Below, piece by piece: positions 28,928 through 36,027 of a DNA stretch of 64,000 nucleotides. A model generated the notes under the pieces. That model was not told where the DNA came from and searched no databases. It saw only the letters and a program-made list of their open reading frames with translations. Position 1 is the first letter of the stretch, and each line of letters begins with the position of its first letter. The DNA comes from Volutella citrinella (Eukaryota; Ascomycota; Sordariomycetes; Hypocreales; Nectriaceae). A program made the position numbers and the translations under genes. The stretch spans positions 310,001-374,000 of the forward strand of contig JAWZSP010000005.1 in assembly GCA_034401135.1 (NCBI GenBank), written 5' to 3'.

Positions 28928-31900
28928 CTACCGCCTGCCCATCAATTTTTTTAGGACCCGGGAGGACGTTTGCACAATCGAGACGTTCAACACGGGAGGT
29001 TCTGTGATGCGCGGATCCAGACCTTCAATGGACATGCCTGGATGCCTCCCCAGGGCTCGATGAAAACTTGGAAGCGCAGCGATGCCCTCTTTGGTGACGC
29101 GGCCTCCGTGATCGAGGAGCAGCATGACGAGCTGGTAAGCGCTCCCTGGGTCCATGTGGTCCCCGATCTCAAAGATGTTTCCCTCGGCTCCAAAGGCAAT
29201 ATCGAGTGGAGTCCGCCCTTGTCTGTCAAGCGCATTCACACTGGCGCCGTATCCCAGGAGAAGCGCCGCCAGCCGCGCGTCGGCAAGGTGAAGCGGTTTG
29301 CTCACGATGTCTGGCACACTATACGAATTGATGCACGCTGGAACGTCCACGTCCGGGTCTTGTCCGTTTTCCAGGAAGGCTTTGAAGAGTGAGAACACCT
29401 CTGAAAGTGTATAGTTGTTACCACCACCGTAGCCCAGATAGAAGCTGTGGCATAGCAGTTGGAACGGGGTCTGATTGTCGTGCACAATGGTCAGGCTAGC
29501 ATGGCGCTTTAGAATTAGAGATGCCATCAGAGAGGCATCGCCAAACGAAATCGACTCGACTCCCAAGCCATATTTGACTCGCCTCACAGCTCGCAGTTTC
29601 TTGGTGAATTGCCGCTTTGGTATGTAACTCTGCTCGTCGTTGCTTCTTTGCACCACGTGATGCAGCAGTGTAGGGTTCTTGGACTTGTGCAAACCCAGCG
29701 CTTGTTTGACTTGCAGAGAGCTGTCATCGCTCAACGATTCCTCGACAAAGATGACGAGATTGGTAACAGCTGCGAATACCAAAGAAGAGCCGTAAAGCCC
29801 GTACACATCTTCGCCGTCCCTCGCAGGAGCAAACGCATCCTCTGCTTCTGCTTCTTTCAACAGTTGTCTCTGGCTCACTCCAGTCGACGCCTCGGCCTGC
29901 GACAAGTAGTGCAGGTAAAAGAACCATTGCGGCAGGCTAGGGCTGTAGTACGGCAGCGATGTGTAGAGCTGCCAACGTTTCCTTTCGACCGTCAGTTGAG
30001 CTAGCGCATATTTGGATAGATATGAGTAGCCATTTTCGTTGAAGTCGAATGACTCATCTCCCAAATATTGGTAAAAGTCGGTCTTCTGTGTAAATTCCTT
30101 GGCCGTGCGATGCATGAACTCGATATAATCGTGCCCATCATCCCTGCCTCTTCGCTCCAAGAGGCCGCCGCATCGGCTGACGAGTCGGCGATCCTGAGTA
30201 TCCGCGGAAGGGACGAGCTCGGGATCCCTTGCCACCACGTCGGCCATTCCTGCTCTTAGGTAAACTCCGTCGTCAAAGTCAAAGTAAACCCGCCTCATCT
30301 CAGATATTGATTCAATCCACGGCTTCAAAGGAATTTTTTTGATGCAGCCTTTGAGACTGTTTTCGGTTGCGCAAGCGATGGCCCACCAGAAGTCGTAGCT
30401 TTTCATGGGCTCTTCAGCTCGCAATGCAATCTCAAGCATGATGTACGCCTCCTGTCGGAACTTCCGAGGCGTCTTTTGTAGAATGCGACGGTACTTGTCC
30501 TCGATTTCCGGCTCCGTGCTGAGGGCATCGAGCTTGTCCACCAAATCCGAGATGTCCTCGGCGGTATCTCTACACTCCTCCAAGAGCTCGTCAATTGTGA
30601 GCTTCAGCCATAGAAACACCCCTTCAGCACCATGGAGGAGTGATTCGACGAGTTGTGGTCCAAGTGGCTTGTCCCTCTCTGAGTCTCTGGCCATGAGCAA
30701 TGACATGCGCTTGTTAGCCTCGAATCTGCCATGTATATAGGTGATGACATCTCCCTTGGTGTGATCCTGGATCCGTAAACCTGGAAGTGTCGCAAAAGCA
30801 TCCACAAATGCATTGTAAGGCCGACTCGAGAGGCATATTCTGATCTTTACCTGGGAATGTTGGCATGAGTCGATGATGTGGGTGATAAAGTCGACGACAT
30901 AGTCTGGTGACTCTTTGCACTCATCGAGAGCATCTAGAAAAAGCAGGATATTCACCGAGACCAAAGCTTGACTGATGATCAAGTCTAGCGCTTCCCGAAG
31001 ATACTCGACTGTCCATTTTCCCTTGCATTTATTGTGCACCGGTAGGACACAAGTTGCCAGGGCTGGTTCACTCGTCACGCATTGATCGAGAACGGCGTAG
31101 AGAAGTCCCTCGATGGACTTTTGAAGCTCTGAGCCGGGATCGTAGAAAGAGAAGGAAGCGCAGATAGCGGATTTTTGCGCCTCATCAAGCAACTGTGTAG
31201 CCATGTCCTCGTACGTGTGTGAGATATATTTCATGAGAATCGACTTGCCAGAGCCAGGCTTCCCGTTGACCCAAAAAATGGAATCATCTGTCTTGAGCCA
31301 CTTGACAAGAGGCGATTCGTCATCCCAGATCCAATGAAAGGTATTGAGGTACGGCGGTTTGATGCTATCAAATCGATGATGCACCTCGGTGTATCTATAT
31401 TTGAAAGTTGCAAGTACTTTGGGGATTGCATCTGTAAATTATAAGTAGGTTATTCGAAAGAACCTGAGTTCGGTGCTGACCTGTCTCGTCATCGGGCTCG
31501 AGTGCCCCAGGGCGTACTTGTGGCACAGCGTGGGCTTCTCCAACCTCGCTGGGCGCCGCTAAGGTTTCCAGTTCAGTGCTTTTGGTAACGTAGTCATTAA
31601 TGACTTCAATGACTGAGCTGCTTGGTGAAAGCTTGACCATATTTACATGGTCCTTGTTGATAGCATGCTGATCTGGTTTCGCTGTGCCAGATTGAATGGC
31701 AAATTCGACGCTTACCAGGATCTCGCTTGGCCCTGAGCTTTGCCAATGCTGGGCGGATGAGTCGTACTATTTGTCACGCGATTAGAACTCTTTCATTCAT
31801 ATTTGAGAGACTCGACATACTTCAGAAGTTTGAGAGGGGCAAGTTTCGTAGAAGGAAACTATTGTCATCGTCTGAGTCTGATGTGCAACGAGGCCTGCAA

Positions 31901-33794
31901 CCTGCTGGTCGAGGTTCTTGAGGTATGCGGAGCTGGACGAGAGTTGGCTGGAGAATGAGTGGCTTGGCTGGCCCCTGATCATTGGAAGCAGCTTAGAACT
32001 CTCTAATCCTTGATTTGGGACACCGAAAAACATTACTCCCCGGATCTGTCCCATCAGTGCATCATTGTTGCGTGCAAGGATTCGTAAAGCAGACTTCAAT
32101 GAAACGCCACCAAGGCCATGTGCGAAGAACATGACTGCATTCAAATTCCGAGACTGTTCAAGGCCTTGGAGCTGATCCACTAAAATTCTGGCGAGTTCTT
32201 CAATAGAATGGACCGATTTGTTGGCTATACCTTGCGTGTCGTATCCATACAGGACAGCACGAGTACCTTTCGCAATTCGAGGTAGTTTGTCTCTCACCCA
32301 GCTGAAATGGGGCTCACCGGTATCTTGCCATGTGTAGAATGGGTGGCTATCAAGGCCATGAATGAAGACGCAACTGACATCGTAAGCAATTAGACATACG
32401 TTCAGACTTGATGCATACTCACTCAAGCGCATGACTTTCTTGATCGACATCACTGAGTGCAGTAAACCCGAGAAAGTGTGTATCGAGCTCAAGGGTATGA
32501 CGACAATCGGCTGATTTTGTAGTCCAAGCATTCCCTTTCTGTAGCCAGCTAGGTATATCACCAGACGGAAAGCCAACTGTTGCTGTTTTCGTGGACTCGC
32601 TGGACAACGAATCTCGTGCGAGTGAGAACACACGCATCTTGCCGAGGGGGTTGACGCTAGGCTGGGATTGCGAAAGGAACCTCAGAAGGCTCTCTGCCGT
32701 CTCTGCGGATGGAATGTGTCGCACTCTGAAGACCAAGTTGCTTGGGTCCTCTGGCAGTCCATCGTCAACGGGAGTCTCATCTGCTTCCGATCCTATACCA
32801 ACTTTAGTTCTCTCAACCCAAGTCAAGCTTGTATGGCGTGTCTTGAGTCATTGGTACCTTGAAACTCTCTACCAGCCTCAGCCAATACGGCCTTTGCGTA
32901 TGCTGCGGCCATTGCTGCGGCATATGGCTGCCAGATTTTGTTCTTGTGCGAGTCACCGTAATCACAAACTCCTCGGATGACGCCAACGGCAATTGTGTCA
33001 AGTACTCCCGCGGCCTCCATTTCGAGACCAATGATGTTGAACTCGTCCCTCAACTGGTTTCTCGCCAAACCATGTTTCATCAGTTTGTCCCCTGAACCGA
33101 TGGGTCCGTACCACACTCTGTTGCGCTCGGCGTCGGGTCGAGTTGGTCTGGCCACGACTCGTTCGATGCCTGAATCATCGACGTCGTACAAGACATCGCC
33201 GTCCTGGCCTGGGTCCAAGAAGTTACCGCCTGCATGCGGGAGGTGTTTCATCTTTTCATAGTATTGGAGAAACGGCCTTGGATCGCTTAGTTGGTTCAAT
33301 TTAATGTTGCCTATCAGAGACCGGACAACGTCGGCGGGTTCGGCCAGAGCATGGCCGTCTCGGAGTAGCTGAAACCCTTGCTCTGTTTCCTTGCCGAGTT
33401 GATAGGCAACGACTGCATCGGTATTGCCTTCGTTCAGGGCGACGAGGATATCCCCCAGGCGGATGTCTCGCCCTACCGAGCTGGATTCGTTCGGTTGGGT
33501 TGGCAACCCGGCCGCGACGCCGACAAGCAGCCCAAACCAAAGACGACTGAAGGTCCTCTTGATCTGGCTGGCCAAAAGGGCTGCCGATACTGTGCCGTAT
33601 TTTTTGCCAGCCGGTAGAGTCGCGATGATAATTTTGAGCCCGCACATCTTACCGGGTATGAAGACATAGTCGTCTCCGTCCCATAAGGCAAATCGGCCGT
33701 GCTTCTCGTCGAGCATGGCCACGGCTGCCTCGGCCTCGATAGGCAGTGGCGCGATCCATACGATCCTATAATCTTCTGGATTCAACGGCGGCAT
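28928..33794 (-). CDS. NLR: PNP_UDP + alpha/beta-hydrolase + NACHT + ankyrin-like tail
   Basis: Six exons keep one frame: 32858-33794, 32423-32801, 31821-32373, 31716-31766, 31481-31667, 28928-31431; 1536 residues. Residues 1-312 are a nucleoside phosphorylase-like domain (IVWIAPLPIEAEAAVAML, GLEMEAAG, CDYGDSHKNKIWQPYAAA). Residues 330-640 resemble the SesB/DUF676 alpha/beta-hydrolase domain, with VFIHGLDSHPFYTW, FFGVPNQG and DHVNMVKL, but the nucleophile motif is AHGLGG, Gly in place of Ser. The NACHT ATPase has Walker A GKPGSGKS (759-766) and Walker B ILLFLDALDE (864-873). One ankyrin-like unit (HLADARLAALLLGYGA) lies near the end. Intron 1 joins the two N-terminal domains; the hydrolase part has no ATG before its conserved start, which argues for one gene. 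Fungal NLRs act in incompatibility and cell death; here two candidate effector or sensor domains are fused. Intron 4 (48 nt, no in-frame stop) is the least certain. Confidence 0.85.
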
Positions 33795-34160
33795 GATGAC
33801 CGCATTGACCGGGTGGTCGAGGAGATGTGCAACGGTCGCGTAAATGAGTATTTTAACATGGAGACTCGAGGTTCGGCAATAACCCCGCACAAGGCTCAGC
33901 TGATACTTTGGTGGCTGGCTGCACGAGACGAGGCTATGGCAGGACTAAAAGTGGCAGGGATAAGGCGGTAGCTATCGCCTAGCCCGCATGTAATTGGTAA
34001 ACTTGAGAAAAACTTGAGAAGGCTTAATGCGCCATCGAAAGCGATTTGGTAGACGGGATGTGACGCATCTAGACTTGATCCCTCAATGCGAATAAGTAAG
34101 AAGAGACTATTTGTATGGCAAATTGTGTATTTAGAATCAAGGGCTCTATCTCCTATCTGA
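33795..34160. other. Intergenic, NLR upstream region
   Basis: 366 bp between the NLR start and the carboxylesterase stop. It would contain the NLR promoter; no clear TATA box was seen. Confidence 0.5.
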
Positions 34161-36027
34161 TTACTGACCAAGCTTGTCGCTGGCGATGGAGTTGATGTAT
34201 GTAGTGCCGGCAAGTCGCAGGGTGTCGGGCTTCACTCCATAGGATTTGGGATTCAGGAAGAAGTTTTGGCCATATCCGCCAGTGGCGTTGTACGCGGGCC
34301 ACTTTTCGACGTTTTCGACTAGGCGGGATATTAGTAATGCTCGGATCCATGGCTTCTAGACACTCACTCTGGTGGTTGTTGGGGTCGAGATCGTTGACGA
34401 AGCTGATCCACATGCGAGTCACCAGCTGCGCGAATTGAACCAACTCCTTGGGCGAGTCTGGCGTAAGGGGGGCAATTCCCGGTCCATAGCCCTGTCCCTT
34501 GAGATTGTAGAAGACGTAACCAATCTCGGCGAAGTGAGAAGTGCCCATGGATGCTCCTAATATTCGGTCAGTGGTGCATAGAGAGGGAAGGTTGACTTAT
34601 ACGTACGTGCGCCGGGAGAATCGAAGTAGTAAGAATATACCGGGACCTCATGCTTGGAGTACATCGCGGTCCTCTTGCGGTGCCACGAGAAGAACATCAG
34701 ATCAGTGTTCAGCGCCACCGCCCTCTTGAACTGAGGGTTCGAGGGGGGCTGGACCCGGTAAGCGACAGGCAGTCCAAGGGCGTCGACGTTGGGATACAGG
34801 ACCTCGAGGACATCTGCCACCTTGTTGTCATCGACACTGTTCTTGATGAGGTCTCTGAACTCCTTGTCATTCGAGACCCCGGGACCGGTGAATAAGGTGC
34901 CCTCATCGGCATTGCTTCCCACAAGCAGGGCAGCCTTGACGAACTTGCCCTTCTCCAACAGCACGGACGGGTAGTCGGGAATGAAGTCATCATCGACAAT
35001 GGGCCTGAACTGGGCGGTCGAAAGGTCGGCAATGGTGGCGTTGAGCTTATCAAAGGGAACCTTGCGCAGACAGGCGAGCTTGTCCTTTTCGCCCTTGCAG
35101 CCGGCGAGAGACACGAGGGTGTCGTAGGCCTTCTGGGGCTTCTTCATGTCCTTCATGTGGAACGGGTCGGCGCCAGATTCGGCAATGACACCACGGAACA
35201 GGCCGTCGTCGCGACCTCCGTAGGCGGTGGCCATGTAGCCGACGTTGCCGCCACCAGCACTCTCGCCCCAGATTGTCACCTTGGTGTTGTCGCCGCCGAA
35301 GGCGCCAATATTCTCCTTGATCCACTCCAGAGCCAGTCGCTGGTCCTTGAGGCCGAGGTTGGCCACGCCAGCCTTGAGAATGTCCTTGCTGGCCAAGAAG
35401 CCCCAAAACGAGAGTCGGTCTATCATCTTGGTTAGTAACATAGCATCATTGGGAGACTAGGCTGGCATACAATCTGCTGAGATGGCCATCATGGGCTTGC
35501 CCATCTTGACAGACTCCTCGACAATGAAGCTGAGGTTGTAAACGCCATTGGCGCTATAGTCGCTTGACCAGCCGCCTCCGTGTAGGAAAACGGCGACAGG
35601 AAGAGGTGCCGATTTGTCGTTGCAGTCTGTCTTGGCGGGCCTGACAATGTTAAGAGTCAGGCAGTCCTCTCCAAGGGTGTGCGGCCAGGCTGGGCTGTTC
35701 TAATGCACATGTTAGCACCCAAAGAAGGGTTAGAGGCAAGGATGCACAAACTCCGTAACCAACGCAAGAGTCGGCGTATTTGGTGGCCTCGCGAGGTTCA
35801 AAGGCGCTGTCTAGCCTCTGCGGGTTCTGGAACCGAAGCTCCCCCACTGGAGGCTTGGCATAAGGCACACCAAGGAATAAATCCTGCTTGTACGAGTCAA
35901 CGTATAGACCCTTGTACGTTCCGTTCTTGATGGCAACAGTGGGCTGGCCCGAGCAACTAGCTTGCGATTGCGGTTGGGCTGCTGCACAGGCAGCAAGCGC
36001 CAGGAAGAGGGAGGAAGCTGACAACAT
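34161..36027 (-). CDS. Secreted type-B carboxylesterase / lipase
   Basis: Exons 35752-36027, 35471-35699, 34607-35419, 34368-34556 and 34161-34318, introns 49-52 nt, 554 residues. A signal peptide (MLSASSLFLALAACAAAQ) is followed by the type-B carboxylesterase fold: FLGVPYAKPPVGELRF, EDCLTLNI, FLHGGGW (oxyanion hole), YRLSFWGF and nucleophile Ser222 in WGESAGGGN. The family hydrolyses esters of many kinds (lipids, feruloyl or pectin acetyl esters, cholinesters). The length is normal. The large intergenic space upstream carries a cluster of SYGGRG motifs, hinting at carbon-source control. Substrate class cannot be deduced from the sequence. Confidence 0.93.

Follow-up and report, generated by a model that had tools for sequence, protein, structure and literature searches.

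The window analysed here is a stretch of 64,000 nucleotides (nt; G000:C5:310001-374000) from a 45-Mb genome of 26 contigs, which is fungal by its relatives and was itself scanned for the own-genome comparisons given below. Its minus strand carries, between positions 28928 and 33794, the frames of a putative NOD-like receptor (NLR): in the order of reading, a PNP_UDP-like domain, a SesB/lipase-like hydrolase domain, a NACHT domain and a weak ankyrin-like tail. The spliced model that we built from the reading frames has five exons and predicts a protein of 1552 residues, not the 1536 residues given in a preliminary description of this DNA. The PNP frame runs from the ATG at 33794 to the stop codon at 32825-32823, in agreement with the stop previously placed at 32823. 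The hydrolase frame passes through exons 2 to 4 and on into the NACHT exon (Table 1); that the hydrolase reads in one frame into a NACHT with intact Walker A and Walker B motifs was likewise borne out when frames and motifs were read directly. The locus is best read as one fused gene, though this is unproven. In its full form, this reading is of a single NLR gene in which a PNP_UDP exon has been joined before a SesB-like hydrolase-NACHT gene, with a dead hydrolase and with the PNP domain as the effector, and we give it a chance just short of even.

The hydrolase frame contains no ATG from the TGA at 32850 to residue 334 (32739), where the conserved extension ahead of the domain lies, as had been described before. 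This absence was compared with the N-termini of related proteins. The relatives comprised 73 proteins for the hydrolase region and the best 120 of 1516 for the N-terminal region, scored from the roughly 8000 candidates that shared most words. Of the 47 strongest hydrolase relatives, 42 had their N-termini aligned; the other five (P0129, P0144, P0158, P0160 and P0161), in which the hydrolase lies far inside the protein, were set aside. In 37 of the 42 (36 by pattern and P0149 by eye), the start methionine lies no more than 12 residues from the conserved [FY]R motif; the N-terminus deviates in P0154 (a partial protein), P0157, P0165, P0166 and P0167, none of which has a PNP match. The hydrolase-NACHT part thus comes from a family whose members begin at about the point at which the window lacks a start. 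The five best relatives (P0121 to P0125), at 34-37% identity over the hydrolase and 30-36% over the NACHT, place it in the SesB-like hydrolase-NACHT family. With such receptors of Pezizomycotina (P0121, P0125 and P0134 among others), the window gene has the N-terminal extension, the hydrolase fold and the NACHT in common and the C-terminus in part (27% identity to P0121). It differs from them in that they mostly have their own start near the extension (37/42), no PNP match (0/73) and, for the most part, a serine at the nucleophile position, which is discussed below.

The end of the PNP exon points in the same direction. Among the matches listed, the nearest PNP relative, at 69% identity, is P0194, a metagenomic protein of 317 residues from a contig of 5633 bases. 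It has 13 of 44 window-specific residues, while the next best protein has 5 (121 rows), and the tail motif E[AV]GR was found in P0194 and the window only (122 rows). The similarity extends as far as G313, whose codon contains the predicted splice donor, and the two sequences are unrelated beyond it. This boundary resembles an exon boundary, and it favours 32857, rather than 32872, as the position of the donor. The phase of the donor is also that of other PNP loci of the genome. Thirty such loci were examined, including that of the window; of the other 29, four were without a nearby stop and two without a donor above zero. In 17 of the remaining 23, against an expectation of about 8, the best donor has phase 1, like the window donor. 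Exons 2 to 5, which encode the hydrolase and the NACHT, are open over 3720 nt. With 3.4% of substitutions giving a stop, an untranslated copy that had diverged by 5% would be expected to contain 6.3 stops, and one that had diverged by 2% to contain 2.5; with a divergence of 1%, the probability of finding none is 0.28.

Several observations weigh against a single gene. The fusion is a prediction from the sequence, as is the splicing on which it depends. The 56-nt intron at 32802-32857 put forward in the preliminary description does keep the frame, but it is not unique: the same donor paired with a TAG acceptor at 32793 gives a 65-nt intron that also keeps it, and this acceptor is more usual than the AAG at 32802. 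Altogether 28 GT..AG pairings are available at the join, and since 11 of them are in frame, the fact that the frames can be joined proves little. With an approximate score of -3.9, the donor (GTACCA) is a weak one and lacks the G at +5 of the usual consensus; the other donor scores are likewise approximate. The comparison with P0194 covers the protein itself, and a downstream nucleotide-binding (NB) domain was looked for at part of the PNP loci in the donor-phase count. The earlier statement that a hydrolase gene of its own would lack a start was too strong, as 16 one-intron models reach the hydrolase frame from an ATG outside the PNP frame (32923 or 32851). Their donors score -3.9 or worse. 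Finally, the preliminary description had looked for support to the same PNP_UDP-hydrolase-NACHT order in other Sordariomycetes, and none of the 193 relatives listed matched both domains in one protein at an E value of 0.01. Another 120 PNP relatives (of 2267), no longer than about 560 residues, served for the PNP domain alone, and PNP-hydrolase fusions may exist in more distant proteins.

These points raise the possibility of two units, namely an independent PNP gene with its end at 32823 and a hydrolase-NACHT gene whose start was lost (a young pseudogene) or is supplied by a short, spliced first exon that overlaps the end of the PNP gene. The stop lies 17 codons past the PNP domain, no donor above zero was found there in the window, and the PNP relatives listed often end at a similar place, though many of these come from gene callers that possibly ignored splicing. 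The spliced-start models and the loss of the hydrolase serine described below count in favour as well. However, the open exons 2 to 5 and the retained Walker motifs, acid and histidine speak against this reading, and the resemblance of the PNP tail to P0194 ends at the donor. Those start models that use a CAG or TAG acceptor need donors of -8.3 or worse. Moreover, only about 50-80 nt separate the PNP stop from the site where the relatives start, so that a second promoter would fall within the PNP coding region. We regard two units as unlikely, though far from negligible.

The hydrolase domain spans residues ~334 to ~690 of the predicted protein. It had been described as of the SesB/DUF676 type. 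The fold agrees with this, as the structure model of exon 3 (mff8458fd521f; predicted local distance difference test score, pLDDT, 80.6) has lipases as its best PDB matches, but DUF676 itself stays below the Pfam cut-off (15.2 vs 20.3 bits). The serine nucleophile in H-S-[LM]-G-G that marks a catalytic SesB-like lipase or esterase is absent, and glycine stands in its place (Gly525). In this column of the alignment, 65 of 72 relatives have serine, three have glycine (P0146, P0149 and P0186) and four have a gap or another residue. The acid E615 and the histidine H663 are kept in the window and in all 72; we take these positions to form the triad, judging from the fold and from known motifs. The serine motif was found by motif search in 10 of 10 other hydrolase-like loci of the same genome. 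Because such a count takes in, besides the nucleophile, another HGLGG situated early in the domain, the alignment column was used for the relatives. Going by these residues, the hydrolase probably folds but does not hydrolyse. Two of the relatives with glycine, P0146 and P0149 of Colletotrichum fructicola, carry tandem hydrolase-like domains (residues ~53-545), both with glycine at the nucleophile (HGLGG and HGIGG), and on sequence provide another example of such fungal proteins whose hydrolases seem to be non-catalytic.

The preliminary description had suggested that two enzymes are coupled in this receptor, nucleotide sensing or cleavage being linked to a lipase-like module. In favour of two domains that are active together upon activation of one NACHT, both folds are present, and the acid and the histidine of the hydrolase are kept. 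A two-enzyme receptor is nevertheless very unlikely because the hydrolase is without the catalytic serine that most relatives and the other loci of the genome retain. Probably, a PNP effector has instead been grafted here onto a receptor whose hydrolase is dead. Equally improbable is a true PNP-hydrolase fusion without intron 1, in which a one-base assembly error or a recent indel at 32847-32826 creates an apparent stop: both frames are open across these same 22 nt, but no homopolymer is seen there by reading, a splice donor explains the P0194 boundary better, and the phase-1 donors at other PNP loci speak for an intron.

The identity of the PNP domain rests on its relatives and on a profile, since Pfam and phmmer searches with the window PNP alone gave no match (PF01048 undetected). 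Over the domain, it is 54-69% identical, typically about 60%, to the fungal PNP proteins among the matches listed, apart from three with longer alignments that fall below this range. In the alignment of these relatives (A3), 41 of 50 members match PF01048 at an E value of 0.1 (best 3.1e-6), and the A3 profile matches 5'-methylthioadenosine/S-adenosylhomocysteine (MTA/SAH) nucleosidases (MTAN) in the PDB (best E 2.5e-4, aligned over 219-310). The PNP_UDP-type assignment made earlier therefore stands by way of the relatives and the A3 profile, and not by a Pfam match of the window protein itself. E20, E258, E260 and D278, the presumed catalytic positions, are kept in the window, the alignment of E20 to MTAN being very weak. 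For the PNP exon, AlphaFold gave a poor model (pLDDT 63.6). Its top Foldseek matches are MTA/SAH nucleosidases; because none reaches an E value of 0.001 and unrelated folds appear further down, we treat the structure match as supporting only.

In its central part, the predicted protein is that of a NACHT-type fungal NLR. A central STAND nucleoside triphosphatase domain is present, with a match to NPHP3_N at 7e-24 and both Walker motifs intact; the Pfam NACHT model scores below its own cut-off (19.4 vs 26.7 bits). The C-terminus matches Ank_4, Ank_2, Ank_5 and Ank weakly, each below the Pfam cut-off. No relatives turned up when viral contigs were scanned with the NACHT exon or P0194. About 370 nt upstream of the PNP start, frames on the minus strand (34153-35699 of the window) may encode a carboxylesterase-like protein, judged by reading.

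Table 1. Predicted gene and its parts, in positions of the window
Feature	Position	Strand	Basis
Predicted single gene: PNP_UDP-like, hydrolase-like, NACHT, weak ankyrin-like tail	28928..33794	-	Spliced model and domain searches
Exon 1: PNP_UDP/MTAN-like domain (residues 1 to ~306) and short tail AGREFQ	32858..33794	-	Relatives, profile
PNP-frame stop codon, used if intron 1 is unspliced	32823..32825	-	Reading frame
Intron 1, phase 1, weak donor GTACCA, branch-like TTGAC	32793..32857 (65 nt, TAG acceptor) or 32802..32857 (56 nt, AAG acceptor)	-	Predicted
Exon 2: linker and N-terminal extension conserved in the hydrolase-NACHT family (NLVFRVRHIP, from residue 334)	32423..32801	-	Model, alignment
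Exon 3: alpha/beta-hydrolase core	31821..32373	-	Structure model, PDB matches
GGC codon, residue 525: Gly for the nucleophile Ser (AHGLGG vs AHSLGG)	32115..32117	-	Alignment of relatives
Exon 4: hydrolase end with conserved His663, and linker	31481..31766	-	Model, alignment
Exon 5: NPHP3_N/NACHT (748-922), DUF7791-like region and weak ankyrin-like C-terminus, the last two below cut-off	28928..31431	-	Pfam
Walker A GKPGSGKS, residues 775-782	31241..31264	-	Sequence
Walker B LFLDALDE, residues 882-889	30920..30943	-	Sequence

Some relatives are annotated as what look like fusions: P0158 and P0160 (DUF6601 ahead of the hydrolase), P0129 (an unrecognised leader of 350 residues) and P0144 (named RAD5B). 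These were rejected as precedents; because they may be gene-model fusions, they serve as a caution. The DUF6601 proteins, to which P0161 may be added by precomputed Pfam only, are from Fusarium and belong to the same hydrolase-NACHT-ankyrin family; they may be either gene-model or true fusions. The leader of P0129 (Neoarthrinium moseri, residues 1-358, ~350 residues without a Pfam match) is absent from P0134 of the same species. P0001 of Fusarium decemcellulare (2464 residues) combines PNP_UDP, NPHP3_N, ankyrin and short-chain dehydrogenase in precomputed Pfam and is a fusion or a gene-model merger. The genome of the window is itself rich in PNP loci, and NACHT matches lie near several of them (C3:1848151 with C3:1846925, and C6:2393555 with C6:2392421). 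One of these (L023/L064, C3:1846925-1849062) is an example of the fungal PNP_UDP-NACHT and PNP_UDP-NB-ARC receptors. Its PNP domain is 64% identical to that of the window at L023, and a phase-1 candidate donor follows the domain; it differs in that the NACHT match comes within about 250 nt past the PNP, with no hydrolase between.

It is already known that fungal NLRs can carry, ahead of the NB domain, two effector-type domains in a row at the N-terminus (PMC9815663, PMC10197012). The pairs named there are C2 with Goodbye-like, others with Goodbye-like, and a protease with a membrane-targeting domain; a PNP and SesB-like pair is not named in these parts, Table A of S1 Text aside. In the titles and opening lines of abstracts on fungal NLR effectors, on inactive SesB or lipase domains and on two-effector NLRs, supplements aside, we recognised no NLR with this combination. 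The pairing thus looks new, while the two-effector arrangement is not. Exchange between the two effectors has a precedent, since Table 2 of PMC4986451 gives NACHTs of 80.8% identity that carry a SesB-like domain in one fungal species and PNP_UDP in another. PNP_UDP is a frequent domain of fungal NLRs, and for its bacterial counterparts an ATP nucleosidase activity is described (PMC10197012). According to a review, modules of this family break down ATP by hydrolysis and have a role in immune cell death (PMC12881547). The PNP effector of Detocs cleaves ATP in immunity and is like the window PNP in fold, but it belongs to another gene system with another sensor; PNP domains are also noted in eukaryotic immune-like proteins in the same source (PMC11249213). 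By analogy, we propose that the PNP domain of the window may cleave ATP or a related nucleotide as an ATP nucleosidase immune effector, a class that splits ATP into adenine and ribose triphosphate.

If the locus is a single NLR gene, its history and working may be pictured as follows. A PNP_UDP exon with a phase-1 donor in its linker, as is usual for PNP loci of this genome, would have been joined ahead of a receptor gene, the fusion point being the place of the start codon of the hydrolase-NACHT family. The hydrolase would have lost its nucleophile serine while retaining the fold and the other two triad positions. The C-terminus would sense some cue, and the NACHT would exchange nucleotide and oligomerise. 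The PNP domains clustered in this way would turn into an active effector that cleaves ATP or a related nucleotide, which would lead to cell shutdown or death. The hydrolase would serve as an inert spacer, a binding surface or a bait.

A fusion of this kind, if real, might be an intermediate of an effector swap, with a new effector added in front and the old enzyme left without its nucleophile, and effector replacement would become testable within one gene. Tentatively, and with confidence clearly below even, we suggest an effector takeover, in which the hydrolase, as the original effector, lost its activity but stayed on as a non-catalytic module, and another effector, one that cleaves nucleotides, was acquired in front of it by intron-mediated exon fusion. 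Integrated decoys have been discussed for fungal NLRs (PMC12258605), and if a takeover took place, the dead hydrolase was possibly retained as an integrated decoy or an assembly surface. Since glycine occupies the nucleophile position in three of the 72 relatives as well, a lipase-like domain in a fungal NLR is not necessarily an active lipase. An effector takeover, if true, would give a direct view of fungal NLRs changing effectors while retaining the old domain.

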